Source: Polycladomyces zharkentensis | Lineage (GTDB): Bacteria > Bacillota > Bacilli > Thermoactinomycetales > JIR-001 | NCBI RefSeq assembly: GCF_016938855.1 | Contig: NZ_JAFHAP010000004.1 | Coordinates: forward strand, 434,001-498,000 | Length of the DNA: 64,000 bases | Reading direction: 5' to 3' | Shown: piece by piece, positions 2,684-59,502 of the stretch | Numbering within the stretch: position 1 is the stretch's first letter | How the letters are laid out: every line of letters starts with the position of its first letter | Notes under the pieces: model-generated | What the model saw: only the letters and a program-made list of their open reading frames with translations | Told to the model about the DNA's origin: nothing | Databases searched by the model: none | Position numbers and translations under genes: made by a program

Positions 2684-3148
2684 TGTTTGGGTAGGTGAAA
2701 ACCACAGGGCCGATCATCCAGGGACGCGTTTTCCCGCCTTCCGTTCCGCAACTGTGCCGATGCACCCCGACGGGAAAACCGTCCCTTGTTTCATCAACCG
2801 TTCCGGAACGTGTCTGGTGAAAACTGTCCACATGGCTTTCCCGGATTGCTCCACCTGCGCCCTGCAGGAAAACGGATGATGACCGCTTTGACCCCGGTCA
2901 GTGCAGGACGCGGGCAAAGACGCTTCGCTTTGAGGAAATTGCCCATGAACTCAAGCCTGCACTTCCCGGATTTACGCTCAGTCGGGGCTTAGGTCTGCTT
3001 GCCTGGGATAACACTGCTTCCTTACGGAATGATCAGGATCGCCCGATCGAAACAGGAGCGAGCGGAAAAGAGGCTCGCCCGAATCAATTGCTTGGACCAG
3101 ACATACCCTTATCGACCGCTTTTCATCTTCGTACAAGGAGGCGATGTG
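2684..3148. other. Spacer between binding-protein and permease genes, with dispersed repeat
   Basis: No convincing coding sequence. Positions 2822-3037 are copy 1 of dispersed repeat family 1, described separately. The first 140 bases contain no clear terminator for the binding-protein gene. The last 110 bases lead to the ribosome-binding site of the first permease. Confidence 0.6.
2822..3037 (+). repeat. Dispersed repeat family 1, copy 1
   Basis: About 215 bp related to stretches at 6314-6507 (inverted), 52209-52386 and 59291-59466. Shared blocks in order: GCTCCACCTGCGCCC, a CGGTCAG/GCAGGACGCGGGCAAAG core, CGCTTCGCTTT, TTGCCC, a TTCCCGG-like block, and a terminal GCCTGGGATAACA. GCGGGCAA and the later TTGCCC can pair to form a stem-loop. 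It lies inside the sugar importer operon. I see no coding capacity conserved between copies. Confidence 0.75.
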
Positions 3149-5060: not shown

Positions 5061-5070
5061 ATCAACCATC

Positions 5071-5488
5071 TGTGACTTGCCCAACAAGGCTGAAGTACCA
5101 CAGACACTTCCTTCGGTCGCCGTGGGCTCCTCGCTTCATCCGGCGTGGTATCCCACTTCCATCCACGACGGCTTCGTCCAAGCCTGGGTGATTTTCATTT
5201 CACGAGTTTTTGCTCGCATATCAGTTTTCAATGTTTTCGTATCTCCACTTGATTACACCAAATGAGATCATGCTGTGCGAATCGCAGATGCGCATGTTGT
5301 TGGTCATGGAAAAAGGCCACGAAGAAGAAGTGAAGCGCGTGTTCGACCATTCTGTCGGACCAGCAAGAGGGACAAGGCCCTCCCGCGTCCGACGCTCGCT
5401 TTCACCCCAACCCTGATCTCGCTTGCTCTTTACAGAAACTGCCGCCTAAAAGCCCACGGCGACCATAGGAAGTACTCTTGGGGTATTT
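5071..5488. repeat. Dispersed repeat family 2, element A (inverted ends)
   Basis: The left end carries TGAAGTACCAC...CTTCGGTCGCCGTGGGC and the right end the reverse complement, CCCACGGCGACCATAGGAAG. Positions 5071-5217 align without gaps to 23157-23304 at roughly 80% identity by eye, and 5386-5441 matches 23351-23421, while the middle differs. The end sequence can fold as CCACGGC...GCCTGTGG. The inverted ends suggest a MITE or the remains of a larger mobile element; no transposase is visible. Confidence 0.65.
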
Positions 5489-5703
5489 TAATCGTGGGAT
5501 GAAAGGCGGGGTTGCTGGAATCCCCCTTGTGGGGATGGCAAGAGCAACTTGTCAATAGTATAATCGAACGTATGAGCGGTGCTCATCCCACTGGTTATGG
5601 GTTTCGTTCCTTGAAAACGTTATGGTATGGGGTTCCAGCGGCGAACCAGTCTCTCCCGCTGGGTAAAACCATAAGAGTGAAAAAAGGAACTGGGACACTG
5701 GTA

Positions 5704-5893
5704 ATACCACGGGCACTTCCGTTGGTCGCAGGTGTCCCGCCCATGCGGGTACATACAGCCCAGCTGTAGAACTGCATGGGATGGGCTGATGAGACAGCCC
5801 CGAACTTGGGAGTTGTCCGAAACAGAAATGGACTGAGGACGTGAACTACCCAAGAATCCCACGGCGACCATAGGGAGTGCCTGTGGTACTTCA
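5704..5893. repeat. Dispersed repeat family 2, element B (inverted ends)
   Basis: A shorter relative of the element at 5071-5488. The left end is TACCACGGGCACTTCCGTTG and the right end CCCACGGCGACCATAGGGAG followed by TGCCTGTGGTACTTCAG. It lies right next to the stop of the YciI-like gene and contains no gene. Confidence 0.6.
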
Positions 5894-5903
5894 GTGTGGA
5901 GTC

Positions 5904-6158
5904 TCAAATCTTCCACTCATGCAGTTCCAAATGCCGGACGCCATGGACCACGTACGGGTCGCGTTCCGCCATCTCTCTCGCTTCCTCCAGCGAATCGGCG
6001 ATGTAGACCACCATGCCTCCCGAACCGTCCGCAAACGGCCCTTTGACAAAAATCTTTCCCTGTTCAGCCAACTGATTCAGATACGCCAGGTGATCCGGCC
6101 GATACTTCTGATTCAGCTCCGGTTTCTTCATGTGCAAAATGGCCGCAAAATATGCCAT
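5904..6158 (-). CDS. YciI-family protein
   Basis: 84-residue YciI-like protein (ferredoxin-like alpha/beta fold, PF03795 type). The N-terminal strand MAYFAAILHM, the central HLAYLNQLAEQGKIFVKGPF with its conserved His and Gly-Pro, and the AREMAERDPYVVHGV segment match this family. Members are small cytosolic proteins thought to bind small ligands or act as simple hydrolases; the role here is unknown. It is a single gene, read toward the repeats on its 3' side, with GGGAGATCGATCGCG just before the ATG. Confidence 0.8.
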   Translation of the reverse strand: MAYFAAILHMKKPELNQKYRPDHLAYLNQLAEQGKIFVKGPFADGSGGMVVYIADSLEEAREMAERDPYVVHGVRHLELHEWKI

Positions 6159-6627
6159 CGCGATCGATCTCCCTTTCTTTTTACATCCATTTTACCATTT
6201 CAACCGGATTACCGGATGATCGTTCCAAGTGTGGAGTACCACCTCTTGTCTCCGCAAGCTCCAGCTCAAATCACTCGCAGGTACTGGCTTTTTCCCGTAA
6301 GTGTTTCTCGAATGCGTCTGGTCATCCCGTAAAGAGGCAATGTTTTCCCAGGCGAGCATCTTGCCAAGCCCGGCCGAGCGAAGGCCCGGAAAGCGCAGGA
6401 ATGAAATCGCGAACAGTTTCCTCTAAGCGAAGGGTACTTTGCCCGCGTCCTGCGCTCCGGTTCTGAAGCGGCCATATCTGTTTCCGGGGTGTGAGCCGGG
6501 AAAACAATCGGTCAATATCCACCAAACACGACCGAGCCAATTTTCGAAGTGAAGACAAAAATCTCAGCCGCAGGACTTCGCCGGCAACAGGTTCAAACCG
6601 CCTTCCGTGCTTGACAGCCAGAAGTTT
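6159..6627. other. Intergenic region containing repeat family 1, copy 2
   Basis: No gene seen. 6314-6507 is an inverted copy of repeat family 1. The rest (6159-6313 and 6508-6627) shows no terminator with a T-run for the large membrane-protein gene that ends at 6628. Confidence 0.55.
6314..6507 (-). repeat. Dispersed repeat family 1, copy 2
   Basis: Minus-strand reading contains GCGCAGGACGCGGGCAAAGT, CCTTCGCTTAGAGGAAAC, CGCTTTCCGGG and GCCTGGGAAAACATTGCC. Its 3' end (…CTTTACGGGATGACCAG) also matches copy 1 (CTTACGGAATGATCAG), so these two copies share a longer right end than the others. Confidence 0.75.
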
Positions 6628-9006
6628 TCATCCATCGATATGTTCTTTCTTTTCCCCTCCCAGTTGCAAAACGTCCTTGTACCGTTGATAGACAAACGAG
6701 ACGGCCAACAGAATCAGCCCCAGTCCGATGAAGGCGAAAATGCGATACAACGTATCGAGGAAGGACAAATCCAGAATGAAAATCTTCAGGATCGTGATGC
6801 CGAACAACACGATCGACGTGATCCGAACCGCCTGAACCCGGCGAATGATCCCGATCACCATCAGCGCGATCGAGTAAAGCAGCCATACGCCGGAAAGAGA
6901 GAGTTGTTGCAGGTTTTCATAGAGATGAATGGCGTCGGTATCGGATGAATCGGCCGAGACAATCAACCGGTCGAATCCATCCATCGTTTCACTGGACAAC
7001 AGTTCCCAAATCAACAGGAAAATCGCCGCATGCACCGTCAAAGGTATCCAACGCGCTACTGATGCGATACCGGGAGCGGTCCGCAACCACCGTCCCAACA
7101 GCCAGCCGCCGACGGCCAAACAGACAAATACCGCAAACCGAATATTGAATACCGGAACAAACGTATCCAAGTCAGGATACGATCCCCCTGTCAACATCGC
7201 CATCAAAACGGCCAGCACATACGCACCTGCTCCCGCCCAAACCGGTACCGCCAACCGGAACCGGGAGCCGATCCGGACCATCGCCAGCGCGTAGAGGAGC
7301 CAAGCGATCACAGTCCATAACGGTTGGTTTCCTGCCCATGTGTCATTCGTCACTTTTACAAGATAATCCGACCAAACATCTGCCTGAAACCAGCTCCAGT
7401 AGAACAGCGTGAACGCTCCCACCCCGTGCCACGCACGGGACAACACCGTTCCCGCTTTTCCCGGTAAATGGCGGGCCCACCAGCCTCCGATCGCAAGGGC
7501 CGCCGCCAATACCCCTGAATGCAACGTTTGCTGGTTCAACAGCGGCCATAACTGGGTACTATCGAGGGAATCACTCCGATCGACCCACATCAGAAATGCC
7601 AAGAAGGCCAGTCCGCTTGCGGCAACCCAGTCCATGCGCGACTGCCGTACTGCTCCCATCCGGGACACTGCGGCCGCTTCGATCGCCCAGATGATGCCCA
7701 GCGTCGCACCGGAGAAAAACATCGCCGTCGCCACAGCCGCATAGGTAAATGCCGACATCCGGTACTGAACCGCTTCGGCAATCCGCCATCCCCGTTTGGC
7801 AGCAATGTGCGACAGCCAGAAATACAACACACCTGCCGACAACAACAGCAGGCCGCCCCATATTTCGTAGTCCCGATAGGACGCCGCATAGGACAGGCTC
7901 AGGAACAATCCCGTATTCACCCCGGCGACGATACGCCCCACCATCTGCGCCGATTCGGACAGATGTGGGCCGCGATGGGCGCGGATGGTGTCGAACCAGG
8001 TAAACAACGCCCAATACAAGGTGAGGAACAGGATTTCCATCCACCACTGATCATGACGGGAAAGGAATGCGAACCACACGACATACAGGAGATAGGTGGC
8101 ACCTGCGGTCATCGGCAACAACCATGGCAGCCACGCCGTTTTTCTCCGGATTACCCACAGCAATCCAGCTGACAACAGGGCGATATAGCCCAGCAATCCC
8201 ATATCATTGGTATTCCCGGAGCTGAGCAGGAAGGGGGTCAGATAACCGCCGGCCCAACCCAGCACTGAAATGGCAAGCGAATCATAACGGATCGCCACCA
8301 AAAAAGAAATGACCGTCATGATCGACATCAGCAACAGCGCCACGGGTTGCGGTACCAGGTGATAAAAATTGAACGACGCATACACCGTCAAGTAACCGAT
8401 GGCCACTCCTGCTCCGAACAATCCCTGCGCGAAAATGGGCAGCCCCTTGTTGTGCCATCGCGAACCCAATCCCAGCAATGCGGCGGTCACCAACACACCG
8501 ATCCCCACGCGGGTCGTCTCATTCAGCCACTGGTGATCAAACGCATATTTGAGGAAAAAGCCCAATCCGATCATCAGTGCAATGGCACCGACCCGGTTCA
8601 GCCATTTCCCTCCGATCAGCAATTCCCACTCCGCACGTGTGCGCGACGGTTTGGCCGGGCGGGAAGGAGCGGGAGAGTCTCCGGCAACTCCGGGCGAAGC
8701 AGGAGCAGGAGTCGGTCGGGAGTGTGTGGGCGGTACCGTAACTGACGGGTCCCAAACCCGGCTCGGGGATTGAGGGACATCGGCAGGTGATGGTTGAGGT
8801 TCCGTTGCTTGTGCAGCTTCATGGCCAGGTTGCGACACCGCACGCAACCGATGCTCCAACTCCGCCATGCGCGACTGCAGCATTCGGACTTGTTTCCATA
8901 AACGAACCACCGCGAAAATCATGACAAAAAAAACGATGACCAGACCCAATAACGATAAAACAAGCAATCCGATCAGAAACTCTTTCAAAGCCTGCTTGCC
9001 CTCCAT
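6628..9006 (-). CDS. DUF2339 polytopic membrane protein
   Basis: 792-residue membrane protein. An N-terminal anchor (LIGLLVLSLLGLVIVFFVMI) is followed by a coiled segment (LWKQVRMLQSRMAELEHRLR), a Pro/Ser/Thr-rich linker to about residue 125, the conserved EWELLIGGKWLNRVGAIALM entry into the membrane domain, and some twenty hydrophobic helices. This layout is that of the DUF2339 family, whose function is not known. Single gene, cytoplasmic membrane. Its 3' side borders repeat family 1 copy 2, and it runs divergently from the dehydrogenase operon at 9179. Confidence 0.85.
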   Translation of the reverse strand: MEGKQALKEFLIGLLVLSLLGLVIVFFVMIFAVVRLWKQVRMLQSRMAELEHRLRAVSQPGHEAAQATEPQPSPADVPQSPSRVWDPSVTVPPTHSRPTPAPASPGVAGDSPAPSRPAKPSRTRAEWELLIGGKWLNRVGAIALMIGLGFFLKYAFDHQWLNETTRVGIGVLVTAALLGLGSRWHNKGLPIFAQGLFGAGVAIGYLTVYASFNFYHLVPQPVALLLMSIMTVISFLVAIRYDSLAISVLGWAGGYLTPFLLSSGNTNDMGLLGYIALLSAGLLWVIRRKTAWLPWLLPMTAGATYLLYVVWFAFLSRHDQWWMEILFLTLYWALFTWFDTIRAHRGPHLSESAQMVGRIVAGVNTGLFLSLSYAASYRDYEIWGGLLLLSAGVLYFWLSHIAAKRGWRIAEAVQYRMSAFTYAAVATAMFFSGATLGIIWAIEAAAVSRMGAVRQSRMDWVAASGLAFLAFLMWVDRSDSLDSTQLWPLLNQQTLHSGVLAAALAIGGWWARHLPGKAGTVLSRAWHGVGAFTLFYWSWFQADVWSDYLVKVTNDTWAGNQPLWTVIAWLLYALAMVRIGSRFRLAVPVWAGAGAYVLAVLMAMLTGGSYPDLDTFVPVFNIRFAVFVCLAVGGWLLGRWLRTAPGIASVARWIPLTVHAAIFLLIWELLSSETMDGFDRLIVSADSSDTDAIHLYENLQQLSLSGVWLLYSIALMVIGIIRRVQAVRITSIVLFGITILKIFILDLSFLDTLYRIFAFIGLGLILLAVSFVYQRYKDVLQLGGEKKEHIDG

Positions 9007-52144: not shown

Positions 52145-52208
52145 CGCATCATCCCTCCATGCGTCCATTGTACCACAACCCCGTGCGTGCCGGGGGCTGT
52201 CTGGTAAA

Positions 52209-52386
52209 TAATGTCCACAATGCTTCCCCGGCTCGCTCCATCTGCACCCGGCAGGGAAGCGGATGATGACCGCTCCGCCCCGGTCAGCGCAGGACGCGGG
52301 GAAAGTACGCTTCGCTTTCAGAACATTGCCCGCGATCTCAATCTCGCGCTTACGAATCTTCGATCGCCTGAGAAAACATTGTTCCA
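52209..52386 (+). repeat. Dispersed repeat family 1, copy 3
   Basis: GCTCCATCTGCACCCGG, GCGCAGGACGCGG, AAAGTACGCTTCGCTTT, TTGCCCGCGATCTC and GCCTGAGAAAACATTG follow in the same order as in the other copies. It fills the space between ylbF and the helicase-associated gene. Confidence 0.75.
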
Positions 52387-52397
52387 TACTCTGGACA

Positions 52398-54302
52398 CTA
52401 CCCGCTCAATTCGTCCGGAATGAGGATCTGCACGGCGGACAGCTCTTCCAGTTTCCAGTGTTCCTCCTCGCCACGACGGTTTTGCCCCCGGATCAGCCAT
52501 TGACCACCGACATTGTCGACTTGCTGCGGGAAAAAGCGGACCGGCTCCGCTCCTTCCCACGTCGCCATCATCTCCAAATCCCATTTTGCCGCTTTTCGAA
52601 CCATATCCAAAACGGTGGTTCGATGATACGCACGCAAGCCCGACGTCCACATCCGGGGCAAATGCTGTATGCCGGGTACCGCCTCATTGATCTCCGGATA
52701 CGTATCAACCAAATGCGCGTCCTCTCTCATCGCCCTGTCAGAAAAACGACGACCCGTTGATCCGAGGGAGGGTGAAGGCGGCAGTCGCCACCATATTTGT
52801 TCTGTTTCTTCAACCAACCCCGGCAAGAAAGGATATCCTTGTCCGTCCAACAACTCCTGCAATTGTGCGAGCTCCATTCCGGCCACCCGGAAGACGGTGG
52901 GACCGATCCTTTTTTGCAACCTGGGGCCGATTTCCGGATGTTGTTCCAATTCATCGGCCAACCTCTCGTCCTGACATTCCAGCAATATACAGTTGTGAAA
53001 GGTAATGCGCCCCGCTTGATCCGCCCACTGGCTCACACCGATCCGTACGTTATCGGGCAATGGAGCGGCGCTGATCCGCTTCAGCTCGGAAAGAATTTCT
53101 CCGGTTGACATCCCCTGCGTTCTTCCTCGACGGACTGAATCGACCGTCAACAGATAGGTCAACATCCGGTCTCCGCCCACATAATCGGCAAATTGTGCCA
53201 ACCGCCACCGTTCAGCCAAGGGAAACGTGAAAGGGATCAGCACTTCAAAATCCGGTTTGACAAAGCCCTTGTCCGGTGTTTCCACCAAAGGGGCCGCAAA
53301 AGGCGAACAGCTGCTCCACCGCCAGTATGACCGATTTTCCTTCCGGCCCAGATCAACCCATCCCATCACCTGAAGGGTCCGCAGCCATCGTCGGATCAGA
53401 GAGCGGTTCGGCTTTTCCCCGTGAGGCAGCGGATTTTCTCCACCGTCAACCGGTGTCCAGTCCCTTCCCTTTTCCTCCAGCACCCACCACCATGCCTCCT
53501 TACCCGGATCATCCTGTAGCAGGCGCCGTTTCACCCAATCGTACAACCGACGTTGTGCGATCCGTTCCGATATGTGCAACCATTCCCTTACCACCGCCTC
53601 CCGCAGAACAAGCCGGTCCTCCACCACCTCAACCAGTTCCCAGTCGCGGGCCAGATCCCAGACCAATTTCAACGCAGACGGTTGATCATCCCCTTCACCG
53701 TTTGGGGTCCACGGGGTGTGGTTCAACGCTTCCGTTTCCATCTCCAATTCCGCGTTCCATTTTTGCGCGGTCCGCTTGTACAGCCGTCCGTCTTGCGTCA
53801 ACCGGGGTGATTGTTGGTGAATCAAGACCAAAAATTGAAACAGATCGTGGTACAAACCGCCTCCGGCCAGTTGTTCCGCTTGAACGTCGGGAATCGGACG
53901 GCTCGTCTGCTTCTCCTTCCATCTCAGACAAAACCATGCCCGGCGAACCTCTTCCGGGCACAGGTGACCCAACTGTCCGCCCGCACTGCGAACGGCATAG
54001 ACCAATCCCTTTTGCCTGAGCCGCAGCAGGGCGACACGCAGCGACACCGACGGCAAGAAGCGCGCTCCTTCCCGTTTTCCCAAATCCCGTCCGCCCCACA
54101 CGCCGCTGCCGACCACAAAAGTGAAATGATCCATCCACGCCTGTTCGGCCTCGTCCATGTGTTCCCGTAACTTCCGCAAATAATCAGCATCAGACAATCG
54201 TTCAGGCAGTCGCTCCGCTTCTTTACCCGCCAATCCGTGCCGTTCGGCGATCCGGGAACGAACGGACGGGGACAGGGATCGGTAACACGCCGTGATGTTC
54301 AC
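52398..54302 (-). CDS. XPB-associated protein with helicase-associated (winged-helix) domain
   Basis: About 634 residues. Mostly helical with winged-helix-like repeats (FLPSVSLRVALLRLRQKGLV, SLIRRWLRTLQVMGWVDLGR) and a C-terminal part with RITFHNCILLECQDERLADE, PTVFRVAGMELAQLQELLDG and AKWDLEMMATWEGAEPVRFF, as in the proteins that accompany bacterial XPB-type helicases. GTG 54302 follows GGGAGGTG and overlaps the XPB stop by 4 nt (GTGA), so the two are coupled. Role in DNA repair is likely but unproven. Confidence 0.7.
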   Translation of the reverse strand: MNITACYRSLSPSVRSRIAERHGLAGKEAERLPERLSDADYLRKLREHMDEAEQAWMDHFTFVVGSGVWGGRDLGKREGARFLPSVSLRVALLRLRQKGLVYAVRSAGGQLGHLCPEEVRRAWFCLRWKEKQTSRPIPDVQAEQLAGGGLYHDLFQFLVLIHQQSPRLTQDGRLYKRTAQKWNAELEMETEALNHTPWTPNGEGDDQPSALKLVWDLARDWELVEVVEDRLVLREAVVREWLHISERIAQRRLYDWVKRRLLQDDPGKEAWWWVLEEKGRDWTPVDGGENPLPHGEKPNRSLIRRWLRTLQVMGWVDLGRKENRSYWRWSSCSPFAAPLVETPDKGFVKPDFEVLIPFTFPLAERWRLAQFADYVGGDRMLTYLLTVDSVRRGRTQGMSTGEILSELKRISAAPLPDNVRIGVSQWADQAGRITFHNCILLECQDERLADELEQHPEIGPRLQKRIGPTVFRVAGMELAQLQELLDGQGYPFLPGLVEETEQIWWRLPPSPSLGSTGRRFSDRAMREDAHLVDTYPEINEAVPGIQHLPRMWTSGLRAYHRTTVLDMVRKAAKWDLEMMATWEGAEPVRFFPQQVDNVGGQWLIRGQNRRGEEEHWKLEELSAVQILIPDELSG

Positions 54303-55984
54303 TGTTCCACCTCCCATTGCTCGGCATCCCGGATGTTGTATCGGTATCCCTGTTCCACCAAAAAGAGCTGACGGTGCATGGCCATCTCCTGATCGACTGT
54401 ATCCCGGGAAACGATATGGTAAAAATGAGCCTGGTTCCTGCCCTGTTTGGGGCGCAGAATCCGGCCCAGCCGCTGGGCTTCTTCCTGCCTGGAACCAAAC
54501 GCCCCGGATACCTGAACTGCCACACCGGCATCTGGCAAATCGATCGCAAAATTGGCCACCTTGGAGACGACCAACACAGGAATTTCTCCTTTCCGAAACC
54601 GTTCGTACAGCCGATCCCTTTCCCGCTGCGCCAACCGTCCGGTAATCAGCGGCGCCGACAATTCCTGCGCAATCTCTTCCAACTGACTTAAGTATTCGCC
54701 GATGATCAATACCGACTCACCAGCATGCCGCCGCAGGATGGCTCTCAGCACCGCCACCTTGTTCGGATTTTCGGCGGCAATCCGGTACCGGTGCCGTTTT
54801 TGTGCGCATGCATACAGCTGCCGTATCTCCGGAGGCATCGGGGTGCGAATCTCGGTGCAAACCGCTTCTGCAATCCAGCCTTTCGACTCCAGCACTTTCC
54901 ACGGCACATCGTATTTTTTGGGACCGATCAAGCTGAATACATCCTCTTGGCGCCCGTCCTCTCGGACCAACGTCGCCGTCAACCCCAATCGCCGCTTGGC
55001 CTGTAAATCGGCTGTAGCCCGAAATACGGGCGCAGGCAACAGGTGAACCTCATCATAGATGATCAAACCCCAATCCCGTTCTTCAAACAACTGCATATGG
55101 GTAAACGGGGCGTTCTGGTTGGACCGGTGGGTCAAAATCTGATAAGTGGCCACTGTCACGGGGGCCACCCGTTTGATCTCCCCTGTATATTGCCCCACAC
55201 ACGTCTCGGGAAGATACGTTTTGTCCAGAATCTCGCGCACCCACTGCCGGACGGAGGTGGCATTGGGGGTCAGGATCAGCGTTTCCCGCTTCACCCTCGC
55301 CATCGCGGCCAACCCGACGATCGTTTTTCCCGCCCCGCACGGCAGAACCAATACGCCGTTCCCACCGTAAACCGATCCGGATCGATAAAAAGCATCGGCC
55401 GCATCCCGCTGATAGGATCGCAATGCAAACGATTCCCCCGACCGGCACCGGTCCCTGAGCGCAACATCCAATGCTTTTCCTTCGCTGTACCCGGCAATGT
55501 CTTCCACCGGATACCCCATGCGTAAAAACAATTGTTTCACTTTTCCTCGCCATGCAGGATCGATCACAACCGTTGTCTCATCCAACGTTTTCAATGCCAA
55601 CTCCCGCACTTCGGGCATCTGTATGAGCGCTTTCCACAACGATCGATCCCTGCATCCGAGTGTTAAATCGTTTCCGATCCGACGCAACTGGATCTTTCCG
55701 TACCGAGACATCCAATCCCGTACTTGGTCCAACAACGTGGATGGCAATTCAAATTTGCTGTAGCGCGTCAACACATCGGTCACTTCCTCCACAGTGACGC
55801 CGCTGGCTGCCGCATTCCAAAGAGACAAGGGTGTTAAACGGTATGTATGAATGTACTCCGGGTTTTTGACCAGCTCCGCAAATGACGCCAAACGATCCCG
55901 CACCTCGTCAAACAACGGATGCCTCACTTCCAGCAATAGCGTACGGTCCCTCTGTACGATCAATGGCAGATCGGGTCGATACAC
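54299..55984 (-). CDS. XPB/ERCC3-type DNA helicase
   Basis: 561 residues. N-terminal domain with YRPDLPLIVQRDRTLLLEV, then motif I VLVLPCGAGKTIVGLAAMAR, motif II IIYDEVHLLP (DEVH), motif III RLGLTATLVREDGRQED, motif V ILVVSKVANFAIDLPDAGVA and motif VI FGSRQEEAQRLGRILRPKQG. The RED triad characteristic of XPB (VREDG) is present. DNA translocase related to the eukaryotic TFIIH subunit. GTG 55984 after GGAAGGAGGGG. Operon with the gene above. Confidence 0.93.
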   Translation of the reverse strand: MYRPDLPLIVQRDRTLLLEVRHPLFDEVRDRLASFAELVKNPEYIHTYRLTPLSLWNAAASGVTVEEVTDVLTRYSKFELPSTLLDQVRDWMSRYGKIQLRRIGNDLTLGCRDRSLWKALIQMPEVRELALKTLDETTVVIDPAWRGKVKQLFLRMGYPVEDIAGYSEGKALDVALRDRCRSGESFALRSYQRDAADAFYRSGSVYGGNGVLVLPCGAGKTIVGLAAMARVKRETLILTPNATSVRQWVREILDKTYLPETCVGQYTGEIKRVAPVTVATYQILTHRSNQNAPFTHMQLFEERDWGLIIYDEVHLLPAPVFRATADLQAKRRLGLTATLVREDGRQEDVFSLIGPKKYDVPWKVLESKGWIAEAVCTEIRTPMPPEIRQLYACAQKRHRYRIAAENPNKVAVLRAILRRHAGESVLIIGEYLSQLEEIAQELSAPLITGRLAQRERDRLYERFRKGEIPVLVVSKVANFAIDLPDAGVAVQVSGAFGSRQEEAQRLGRILRPKQGRNQAHFYHIVSRDTVDQEMAMHRQLFLVEQGYRYNIRDAEQWEVEQ

Positions 55985-57921: not shown

Positions 57922-59280
57922 GTGACGAACATCATGAACGGGGGGGTTCTTCTGCCGTTGGAATACGTGATCATCCTTTTGTTCAAATTCACACTCGTCT
58001 TTTTGCTCGTACTGGCGAACGGCTTTTTCGTCGCGGCGGAGTTCGCGATTGTCAAAGTGCGTTCCACACGGATTGCCCGGCTGACGGAGGAAGGAAACCG
58101 TCGGGCCAAAGCGGCGGAAAAAGTATTGGCCAATCTGGATGCTTATCTGTCAGCCACTCAGCTGGGCATCACATTGGCTTCGCTCGGTTTGGGTTGGATC
58201 AGCGAACCGGCTGTTGCCCGTGTGATTGATACGGCACTGCAATGGCTTCATCTGCCCGAGTGGATGATACATACGGTATCGTTTGCCATCACGTTTATCC
58301 TGATCACGTTTCTTCACATCGTGTTAGGAGAAATGGCGCCCAAATCACTGGCCATTCGGCGATCGGAGAATATCACCCTGTTCACCTCGCGTCCGCTGAT
58401 TTGGTTTTATCGCTTGTTTTATCCGTTTATCTGGGTGTTGAACAATGCCGCCAACCAAGTGTTGAAATGGCTGGGGATCGAACCCGTACCCGATCACCAG
58501 ACGGCACACGACGAAGAAGAAATTCGCATGTTGGTGGAGCAAAGCCACAAAAGCGGGTTGATCGACCAGACCGAACTGTCCTTGTTTGACAACATTTTTG
58601 ATTTCACCGACCGCGTGGCAAGGGAGATCATGGTTCCCCGGGTCGATATGGTCTGCTTGTACACCCATCTGTCATTCGAGGAAAACATGAAGATCGTCAA
58701 GGAAGCGCAATATACCCGGTTTCCCCTGTGCGGCAAAGACAAAGACGACATTCTCGGCATCATCCATATTCGCGATATCTATGAACGGCTGGCGGAAGGA
58801 GAGACACCTGATATCACCCAGTTGGTCCGCCCGACCATCTTGGTGCCGGAGACGATGGAAATCAAGGATATCCTGCGAATTCTGCAAAAAAACCGGGCCG
58901 GTATGGCCGTTGTCGTCGACGAATACGGCGGTACATCCGGCCTGGTGACCACAGAAGACATCATCGAAGAGATCGTCGGCGAAATTCAGGATGAATTTGA
59001 CGACGAACGGCCGTTTTTCCAACAAAAAGGAGACGAGACGTCGATCGACGCCCGTCTGCTCATCGAAGAAGTCAACAAACATTTCAACATTCACATCGAA
59101 GATCCTGACAACGATACGATCGGCGGATGGATCTTCTCGCAACTGCAGGAAGTACCCAAAGTGGGGGACCGTGTCACATACGACGGCCTTCTCTTCATCG
59201 TGCAGGAAATCGATCAGCGCAGCGTCACCCGTCTGCTTGTCAAACCGGCGCCGTCCGAAAACCGGAAGTCGTCATCATAA
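57922..59280 (+). CDS. CNNM/CBS-pair (TlyC/HlyC-like) membrane protein
   Basis: 452 residues. DUF21 membrane domain (LVFLLVLANGFFVAAEFAIV, SATQLGITLASLGLGWISEP, FLHIVLGEMAPKSLAIRRSE), a CBS pair (MVPRVDMVCLYTHLSFEENM, GMAVVVDEYGGTSGLVTTED) and the CorC-type C-terminal domain (SIDARLLIEEVNKHFNIHIE). Such proteins are linked to magnesium transport or homeostasis in the cytoplasmic membrane. GTG 57922 lacks a clear ribosome-binding site; ATG 57934 is an alternative. Ends in a terminator at 59503 after the repeat. Confidence 0.92.
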   Translation: MTNIMNGGVLLPLEYVIILLFKFTLVFLLVLANGFFVAAEFAIVKVRSTRIARLTEEGNRRAKAAEKVLANLDAYLSATQLGITLASLGLGWISEPAVARVIDTALQWLHLPEWMIHTVSFAITFILITFLHIVLGEMAPKSLAIRRSENITLFTSRPLIWFYRLFYPFIWVLNNAANQVLKWLGIEPVPDHQTAHDEEEIRMLVEQSHKSGLIDQTELSLFDNIFDFTDRVAREIMVPRVDMVCLYTHLSFEENMKIVKEAQYTRFPLCGKDKDDILGIIHIRDIYERLAEGETPDITQLVRPTILVPETMEIKDILRILQKNRAGMAVVVDEYGGTSGLVTTEDIIEEIVGEIQDEFDDERPFFQQKGDETSIDARLLIEEVNKHFNIHIEDPDNDTIGGWIFSQLQEVPKVGDRVTYDGLLFIVQEIDQRSVTRLLVKPAPSENRKSSS

Positions 59281-59290
59281 TCGGCGGATC

Positions 59291-59466
59291 TCCCGGGTTT
59301 GCTCCACCTGCGCCCTCAAAGAAGCAGGTCATGTCGCTCCGACCAGGAGCGCAGGACGCAGGCAAACTACGCTTGCTTTAAGGAAGTTGCCCGCGATTTC
59401 CTTCCTTCACTTTCCGTGTCTTCGCTCGGCTTGGCTTAGGTCTTCGCTCACCTGGGCTAGCATTTA
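59291..59466 (+). repeat. Dispersed repeat family 1, copy 4
   Basis: GCTCCACCTGCGCCC, GCGCAGGACGCAGGCAAAC, TACGCTTGCTTTAAGGAAG, TTGCCCGCGATTTCC, CTTCGCTCGGCTTGGCTTAG and CACCTGGGCTAGCATT. Lies between the CBS-domain gene and its terminator, so it would be transcribed as part of its 3' untranslated region. Confidence 0.75.
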
Positions 59467-59502
59467 CTCCATTGCGGATTCACCAAAAACGCCTTGCCTG
59501 CT

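Follow-up and report, generated by a model that had tools for sequence, protein, structure and literature searches.

Dispersed repeats of Polycladomyces are very probably old copies of a MITE mobilised in trans by an IS5-family transposase

We analysed a window of 64,000 nucleotides from Polycladomyces zharkentensis in order to understand a family of dispersed repeats with four copies in this stretch. The repeats are very probably old copies of a gene-less MITE that was mobilised in trans by an IS5-family transposase. The element is about 240 bp long, occurs in many copies and carries no transposase gene. We base this reading on terminal inverted repeats (TIRs) shared between copies, on insertion sequences (IS) of the IS5 family with matching TIRs in the same order and genus, on TA flanks and on nested copies with insertion inside another repeat, evidence that bears out one suggestion of an earlier note on this DNA, that the repeats may be non-autonomous mobile elements.

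The four repeat copies reported earlier in the window are real, as a profile search and a core model both recover exactly these four. The profile, built from 33 aligned copies with the four window copies included, matches at 2807-3043 (+), 6313-6531 (-), 52194-52424 (+) and 59288-59493 (+) with E-values from 8e-62 to 7e-50, and nothing else in the whole window reaches E 1e-5. The core model R1, built from 40 sequences with the four window copies among them, finds the same copies at E 8e-28 to 2e-16, the best remaining match in the window having an E-value of only 0.13. BLAST with copy 1 alone gives 41 matches in the own genome (136 initial candidates, 40 scored), a support independent of the profile and the core model. 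Copy 1 (2806..3044, + strand; profile E 8e-62) is full-length, with both ends recognisable by sequence reading, a degenerate right TIR and a core hairpin at 2889..2974 (+; R1, 69.4 bits); the ORFs on its two sides apparently belong to a sugar ABC-transporter operon, their names coming from reading of the sequence. Copy 2 (6310..6533, - strand; E 2.9e-56) is full-length with both TIRs recognisable, lies downstream of the ORF at 6628-9006(-), and has its core hairpin at 6381..6465 (-; R1, 95.2 bits). Copy 3 (52193..52424, + strand; E 7.1e-50) has a degenerate left TIR, a decayed right end and a core hairpin at 52275..52360 (+; R1, 60.1 bits). Copy 4 (59288..59494, + strand; E 5.9e-52), which starts 8 nt past the stop of the ORF at 57922-59280, has lost its left end and shows a degenerate right TIR, with its core hairpin at 59339..59422 (+; R1, 78.1 bits).

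Several details of the earlier description change with these limits. The coordinates first given lie inside the true elements but missed the TIRs at their ends. The pairing described between GCGGGCAA and TTGCCCGC is present, but at least one pair of the 9-bp core stem is broken in every window copy. Placement of all four copies between genes is nearly true, except that copy 3, by its profile limits, overlaps the last 27 nt of the ORF at 52398-54317(-). In a wider set, 15 of 74 copies share more than 60 nt with an ORF predicted mechanically, so the family as a whole is mostly, but perhaps not strictly, intergenic. Another TIR-like sequence, ACCAGACATACCC, lies at 3096-3112, about 60 nt past copy 1, and is also found in P. 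abyssicola; it is perhaps the remnant of another element. The window also holds a second dispersed element at 5064-5907, about 805-840 bp in length and with no ORF of at least 100 aa inside. Its 42-nt inverted arms (5090-5131 and 5853-5894) are 86% complementary, it is absent from the same site in P. abyssicola and in a further congener, G002, and many partial copies occur elsewhere, several of them at G002 contig starts.

A genome-wide model search showed that further copies are abundant. With stricter filters, the core model gave 105 matches in the own genome (3.32 Mb in 22 contigs; 107 candidates were scored, so the count is near its ceiling), 59 in P. abyssicola, 95 in G002, 11 in G035, a genome of another bacterial family, and one each in G004 and G033, whereas the remaining 36 of the 42 genomes of the order that were searched had no match. 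In the alignment of 33 copies the element is bounded by the TIRs GRGYGTGTCTGGT...ACCAGACACRCCC; the aligned ends read CTAGRGYGTGTCTGGTG on the left and ACCAGACACRCCCTAG on the right, their outer CTA/TAG being mostly target sequence. Copies with both ends recognisable are mostly 224-242 bp long, and two measure 303 and 323 bp because a second TIR-like site lies further out. Sites resembling the TIR with at most one mismatch number 109 in the own genome versus 0 for a reversed control pattern, and a tighter pattern gave 43 in P. abyssicola versus 2 for the control. All seven further TIR-bearing loci examined in the own genome match the profile, three of them split or partial. At one locus, L202 (contig C7, 61600-62100), a copy of the family is split by about 130 nt of unrelated sequence, either a nested insertion or a rearrangement. 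For the counts on 81 copies, the sequence set was cleaned of six duplicate locus entries and of all fragments below 100 bits, leaving 81 of 93 matches, and the copies of P. abyssicola and G002 were drawn from the best matches (20 regions each plus a few) out of their 59 and 95.

The TIRs of the element lead to a partner IS. Laceyella sacchari contains a complete IS of 932 bp that is bounded on either side by the perfect 17-bp TIR GGGCGTGTCTGGTGAAT, with TTA on its left flank and TAA on its right. In consensus the MITE ends equal the first 13 bp of these IS ends, and the left end of individual copies agrees at up to 16 of 17 positions (L005, L030). Both overlapping ORFs of the IS, which form a two-frame transposase, score above the cut-off of NF033580 (transpos_IS5_3), with E 3e-40 and 2e-47; matches to DUF4096 (PF13340) and DDE_Tnp_1 (PF01609) were also obtained. 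The partner IS thus belongs to the IS5 family, within which it may be of the IS427-type group. A related IS of about 951 bp, flanked by CTA and TAG and with TIRs alike at 13 to 15 of 17 positions, lies in G002 (contig C51, ~102929-103879), and similar IS ends are also present in G033. The MITE interior was not found in either of the two IS sequences tested.

The complete autonomous IS of the own genome is missing from the assembly, which holds pieces at contig ends only: a TIR stands no more than about 20 nt from the end of seven contigs (C1, C3, C5, C6, C10, C20 and C21), the first 77 nt of C16 are an IS end, and C8 opens inside an IS5-type transposase (88% identity over 50 aa). This is the signature expected of a collapsed multicopy IS. 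With the C16 IS end as query, matches occur in 9 of the 42 genomes of the order. P. abyssicola, despite its 59 MITE copies, has no match to the IS transposase at E 0.001 and carries one other DDE_Tnp_1 gene, at 1433047, so that mobility there would be past or would depend on another enzyme. Among contigs of other genomes, a search whose scope possibly left the own-genome records outside, the TIR pattern returned 14 stretches, 10 of them from Laceyella/Thermoactinomyces and four from an Amycolatopsis and MAGs of three other lineages, and the core pattern returned nothing. The exact TIR TAGGGCGTGTCTGGTGAAT occurs in an Actinomycetota MAG (L092), an Amycolatopsis (L094), a Thermomicrobiales MAG (L097) and a Zixiibacteriota MAG (L102); in L092 and L097 it is paired in inverted orientation across 584 and 1157 bp, with CTA before and TAG after. 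No matches were found in plasmids (both queries), phages (G004 element only) or viral contigs (one exact pattern).

We also examined the flanks, since target duplications had been proposed earlier as a check on mobility. The dinucleotide directly outside the TIR is TA in 24 of the 56 left and 24 of the 44 right ends, 14 to 18 times the flank background of 3.1%, and the next commonest dinucleotides, CA and TG, are one transition away from TA. The two flanking dinucleotides are identical in only 8 of the 30 copies with both ends scored, 7 of these being TA. Target duplication is therefore indicated mainly by the TA enrichment at both ends; its traces are present but mostly decayed, only 7 of the 30 copies being flanked by TA at both ends. 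Copy L006 interrupts another repeat, five P. abyssicola paralogues of which lack the element, the empty site reading GGGATTCTTGGGT and the occupied one GGGATTCTA-element-CAGAGT; L002 is a similar case with a poorer alignment. A clean orthologous empty site was not found at the sites compared. In P. abyssicola the site of copy 1 retains a deleted remnant. The sites that correspond to L007 and L014 exceed the length expected of an empty site by 15 to 57 nt. Copy 2 has an ortholog in G002 (flanks 84% identical) and is absent from the matching stretch of P. abyssicola, which differs across a wider stretch.

Other insertions are shared between species. L031 and L033 are found in all three, L005 in two, and L034 in two, the third keeping a remnant; copy 3 has a counterpart at the orthologous P. 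abyssicola site, the elements being 66% identical and the flanks 88%. Of 17 comparisons of orthologous elements, made at 12 sites, 15 show the elements to differ more than their flanks, or 14 of 16 once a probable mispaired neighbour (L003_1112 with L166) is left out, and since the flanks include genes, this gap speaks against strong constraint without giving an exact rate. At L031 (contig C6, 63420-63587) the window species holds, between the same flanks as L131 and L130, a copy of another subfamily: it is 95% identical to a conspecific copy, whereas both congeners hold a different one there (75-79%), so that gene conversion between dispersed copies or re-insertion is possible. On the MITE reading, an IS5-type transposase would recognise the TIRs and move the element in trans, insertion would take place at YTAR with duplication of the TA, and many insertions would be older than the species split and would have drifted since under little constraint.

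The other suggestion made earlier was that the repeats are structured RNAs. Over its whole length the consensus forms a single long hairpin that bears side hairpins (-105 kcal/mol), and we looked for compensatory changes between its arms. Within the genus they are not supported: 40 cores contain 7 double-change cells versus 6.8±2.4 in shuffles, with none of five measures standing out, and an alignment-free arm test, which asks whether the left arm of a copy pairs better with its own right arm than with right arms from elsewhere in the family, yields p 0.33 for the 47 copies, among 81, that have arms locatable by pattern. RNAalifold predicts zero pairs from the 81 copies, and when sequences are folded singly, copy 4 shows a weak signal (z -1.95) and copy 1 none (z 0.43). 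Rfam returned no family at gathering level in the window, and in nine loci searched up to E 5 it gave no credible match. Other measures lean towards structure. The 81 copies have 56 double changes versus 43.4±5.7, with subfamily structure uncontrolled, and 4772 paired cells versus 4755±9; the innermost 9-bp stem has 7 double changes versus 1.5±1.2, but also 49 broken cells, and pairing is lost in many genus copies. Variation is lower in paired than in unpaired columns (12.8% versus 16.4%), and the central bins are the most conserved. The 59 full copies fold at a mean of -86.3 kcal/mol, better than column-shuffled copies (-82.6, sd of means 0.7) and a randomly mutated consensus (-80.5). This folding excess goes against neutral decay, weakly so because shuffling scatters indels and mixes subfamilies. 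Some structural constraint within the genus is possible. The comparison of three species illustrates how likeness among paralogous copies can hint at an RNA structure for which a covariation test gives no support.

Outside the genus, a second core-model run at E 0.01 gave 11 matches in G035, five in G004 and one in G033. Every one of the 11 G035 loci is recovered by the sequence profile, one at E 1e-10 and the other ten with E-values of 5e-16 or below; these values refer to 52 kb of loci preselected by the core model, and reversed sequences used as a control in this comparison gave no match. The G035 matches are confined to model positions 23-219 of 239, that is, to all but the TIRs. When the core was masked, which reached 8 of the 11 loci and missed three, seven of the eight kept arm matches below E 1e-3 and L192 reached only 0.016. 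The G035 ends are different, resembling GAAGTCATTTCAAAA; by visual count, TA adjoins 6 of the 8 left ends and 6 of the 7 right ends that could be recognised. The G004 and G033 elements have only the core in common with the family; their ends resemble GGGAGGGATTTTTGA with no clear duplication, and it is the core model that relates them (E 2.7e-5 to 7.6e-3), the profile matching 0 of 6 loci at E 0.1. In G004 a T run follows the core stem, like an intrinsic terminator. Between the stems, short CGCT motifs seem to return at constant positions (7 versus 1.45 in mononucleotide shuffles, a weak control that makes this a lead only). The arms of the G035, G004 and G033 elements co-vary, with 53 double-change cells versus 19.1±4.0 and 18 pairs versus 9.3±1.7 (0 of 500 shuffles), in an alignment fitted to the model and comprising 17 sequences only. 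The alignment-free test agrees, own-arm pairing exceeding cross-arm pairing at p 0.0027 in G004 and G033 together (6 copies) and again at p 0.0027 in G035 (11 copies). The structured-RNA proposal thus gains no support from compensatory changes within the genus, although relatives outside it do have a conserved, co-varying hairpin, so the structure is not without meaning.

This mixed outcome bears on how the repeats are to be explained. The dispersed copies might be functional structured RNAs, regulators or riboswitch-like leaders lying between genes, with mobility incidental. The long consensus hairpin, the co-varying arms outside the genus, the folding, column variation and conserved centre of the genus copies and the double changes of the innermost stem would fit such a role, but we consider it very unlikely, given chance-level covariation within the genus, broken cells that far outnumber those double changes, a folding excess confounded by indels and subfamilies, the lack of a credible Rfam match in the window and the nine loci, and element ends that are transposon ends. 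Nor does placement favour it, as all four gene orientations occur (26/14/13/14 with orthologues removed). An apparent orientation bias of 33:12 antisense to sense in co-directional gene pairs shrank to 26 versus 13-14 (p 0.05-0.08) without orthologues and is not claimed. REP/BOX-type recombination or regulatory repeats, with no DDE transposase involved, would likewise be short, palindromic, mostly intergenic and present in about 100 copies; that the TIRs resemble those of IS5-family IS, with TA at the ends, and that one copy is inserted within another repeat make this extremely improbable.

A rival of another kind concerns only the covariation outside the genus, which could be mutational. In quasi-palindrome correction, template switching between the arms restores pairing, with no function or selection. 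The elements are long imperfect palindromes of the kind on which such correction could act, and the genus copies show a small excess of double changes in the innermost stem and, with subfamilies uncontrolled, overall. Correction should act on dead copies too, however, and the 40-copy set stands at chance despite about 20% divergence, so we regard this explanation as somewhat unlikely, while it is the main alternative to the hairpin mattering. We favour the MITE reading, on which the long hairpin would be a property of active master elements, retained over longer times, as the co-varying arms outside the genus suggest, and any effect on host transcripts would be only a side effect. This deeper conservation suggests that the hairpin matters to active elements. 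The shared interior of about 195 bp is more than a minimal MITE needs, which counts against a MITE-only reading. As a more speculative and on balance unlikely extension, the hairpin may be a transferable functional core that, in the form of RNA or of extruded single-stranded DNA, helps whichever transposon ends flank it to spread. The core would then, again with low confidence, have been re-packaged between two, perhaps three TIR pairs in the Thermoactinomycetales. The pairs in question, named here just as tentatively, would be GGGCGTGTCTGGT with TA in the window genus, a pair resembling GAAGTCATTTCAAAA, likewise next to TA, in G035 and, should the match of the core alone reflect homology, GGGAGGGATTTTTGA-like ends in G004 and G033. 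If true, this would be a parasite of transposases in which selection acts on the structure of the nucleic acid and neither on a protein nor on the ends.

As a rule, a MITE family is identified from its ends. The MITE itself is ordinary, one more tiny parasite of an insertion sequence; what would be new is an interior common to two bacterial families between different transposon ends. A shared interior of about 195 bp with differing ends raises a testable question, whether MITE interiors aid mobility through structure. No description of the element was found in the openly accessible part of the literature on MITEs, IS5/IS427, Polycladomyces and Thermoactinomycetaceae, and the P. abyssicola genome paper makes no mention of repeats (PMC8210696). 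The IS5-family IS (NF033580) shares at least the first 13 bp of its TIRs and the TA flank with the MITE and is its likely transposase source, whereas it encodes a transposase and, in the two IS tested, lacks the MITE interior. Among known systems, as far as the accessible text describes them, the Nezha MITE of cyanobacteria, proposed to be mobilised by ISNpu3-like elements, is likewise non-autonomous, and its TIRs resemble those of an autonomous IS, but its host and IS are different and the likeness is one of description, not sequence (PMC3049150). RUP of Streptococcus pneumoniae, 107 bp long with 110 copies in one strain and a proposed trans-mobilisation, resembles the present MITE, in the same accessible text, in its high copy number, in TIRs similar to a resident IS (IS630-Spn1 for RUP), in a tight hairpin that includes the TIRs and in slow present-day insertion (PMC3049150). 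It differs in its IS, in being AT-rich and in having under half the length, and is set apart by this description, not by sequence (PMC3049150). Compared with what that text reports of RUP, the present MITE also stands apart in having a related interior between different TIRs in another bacterial family.
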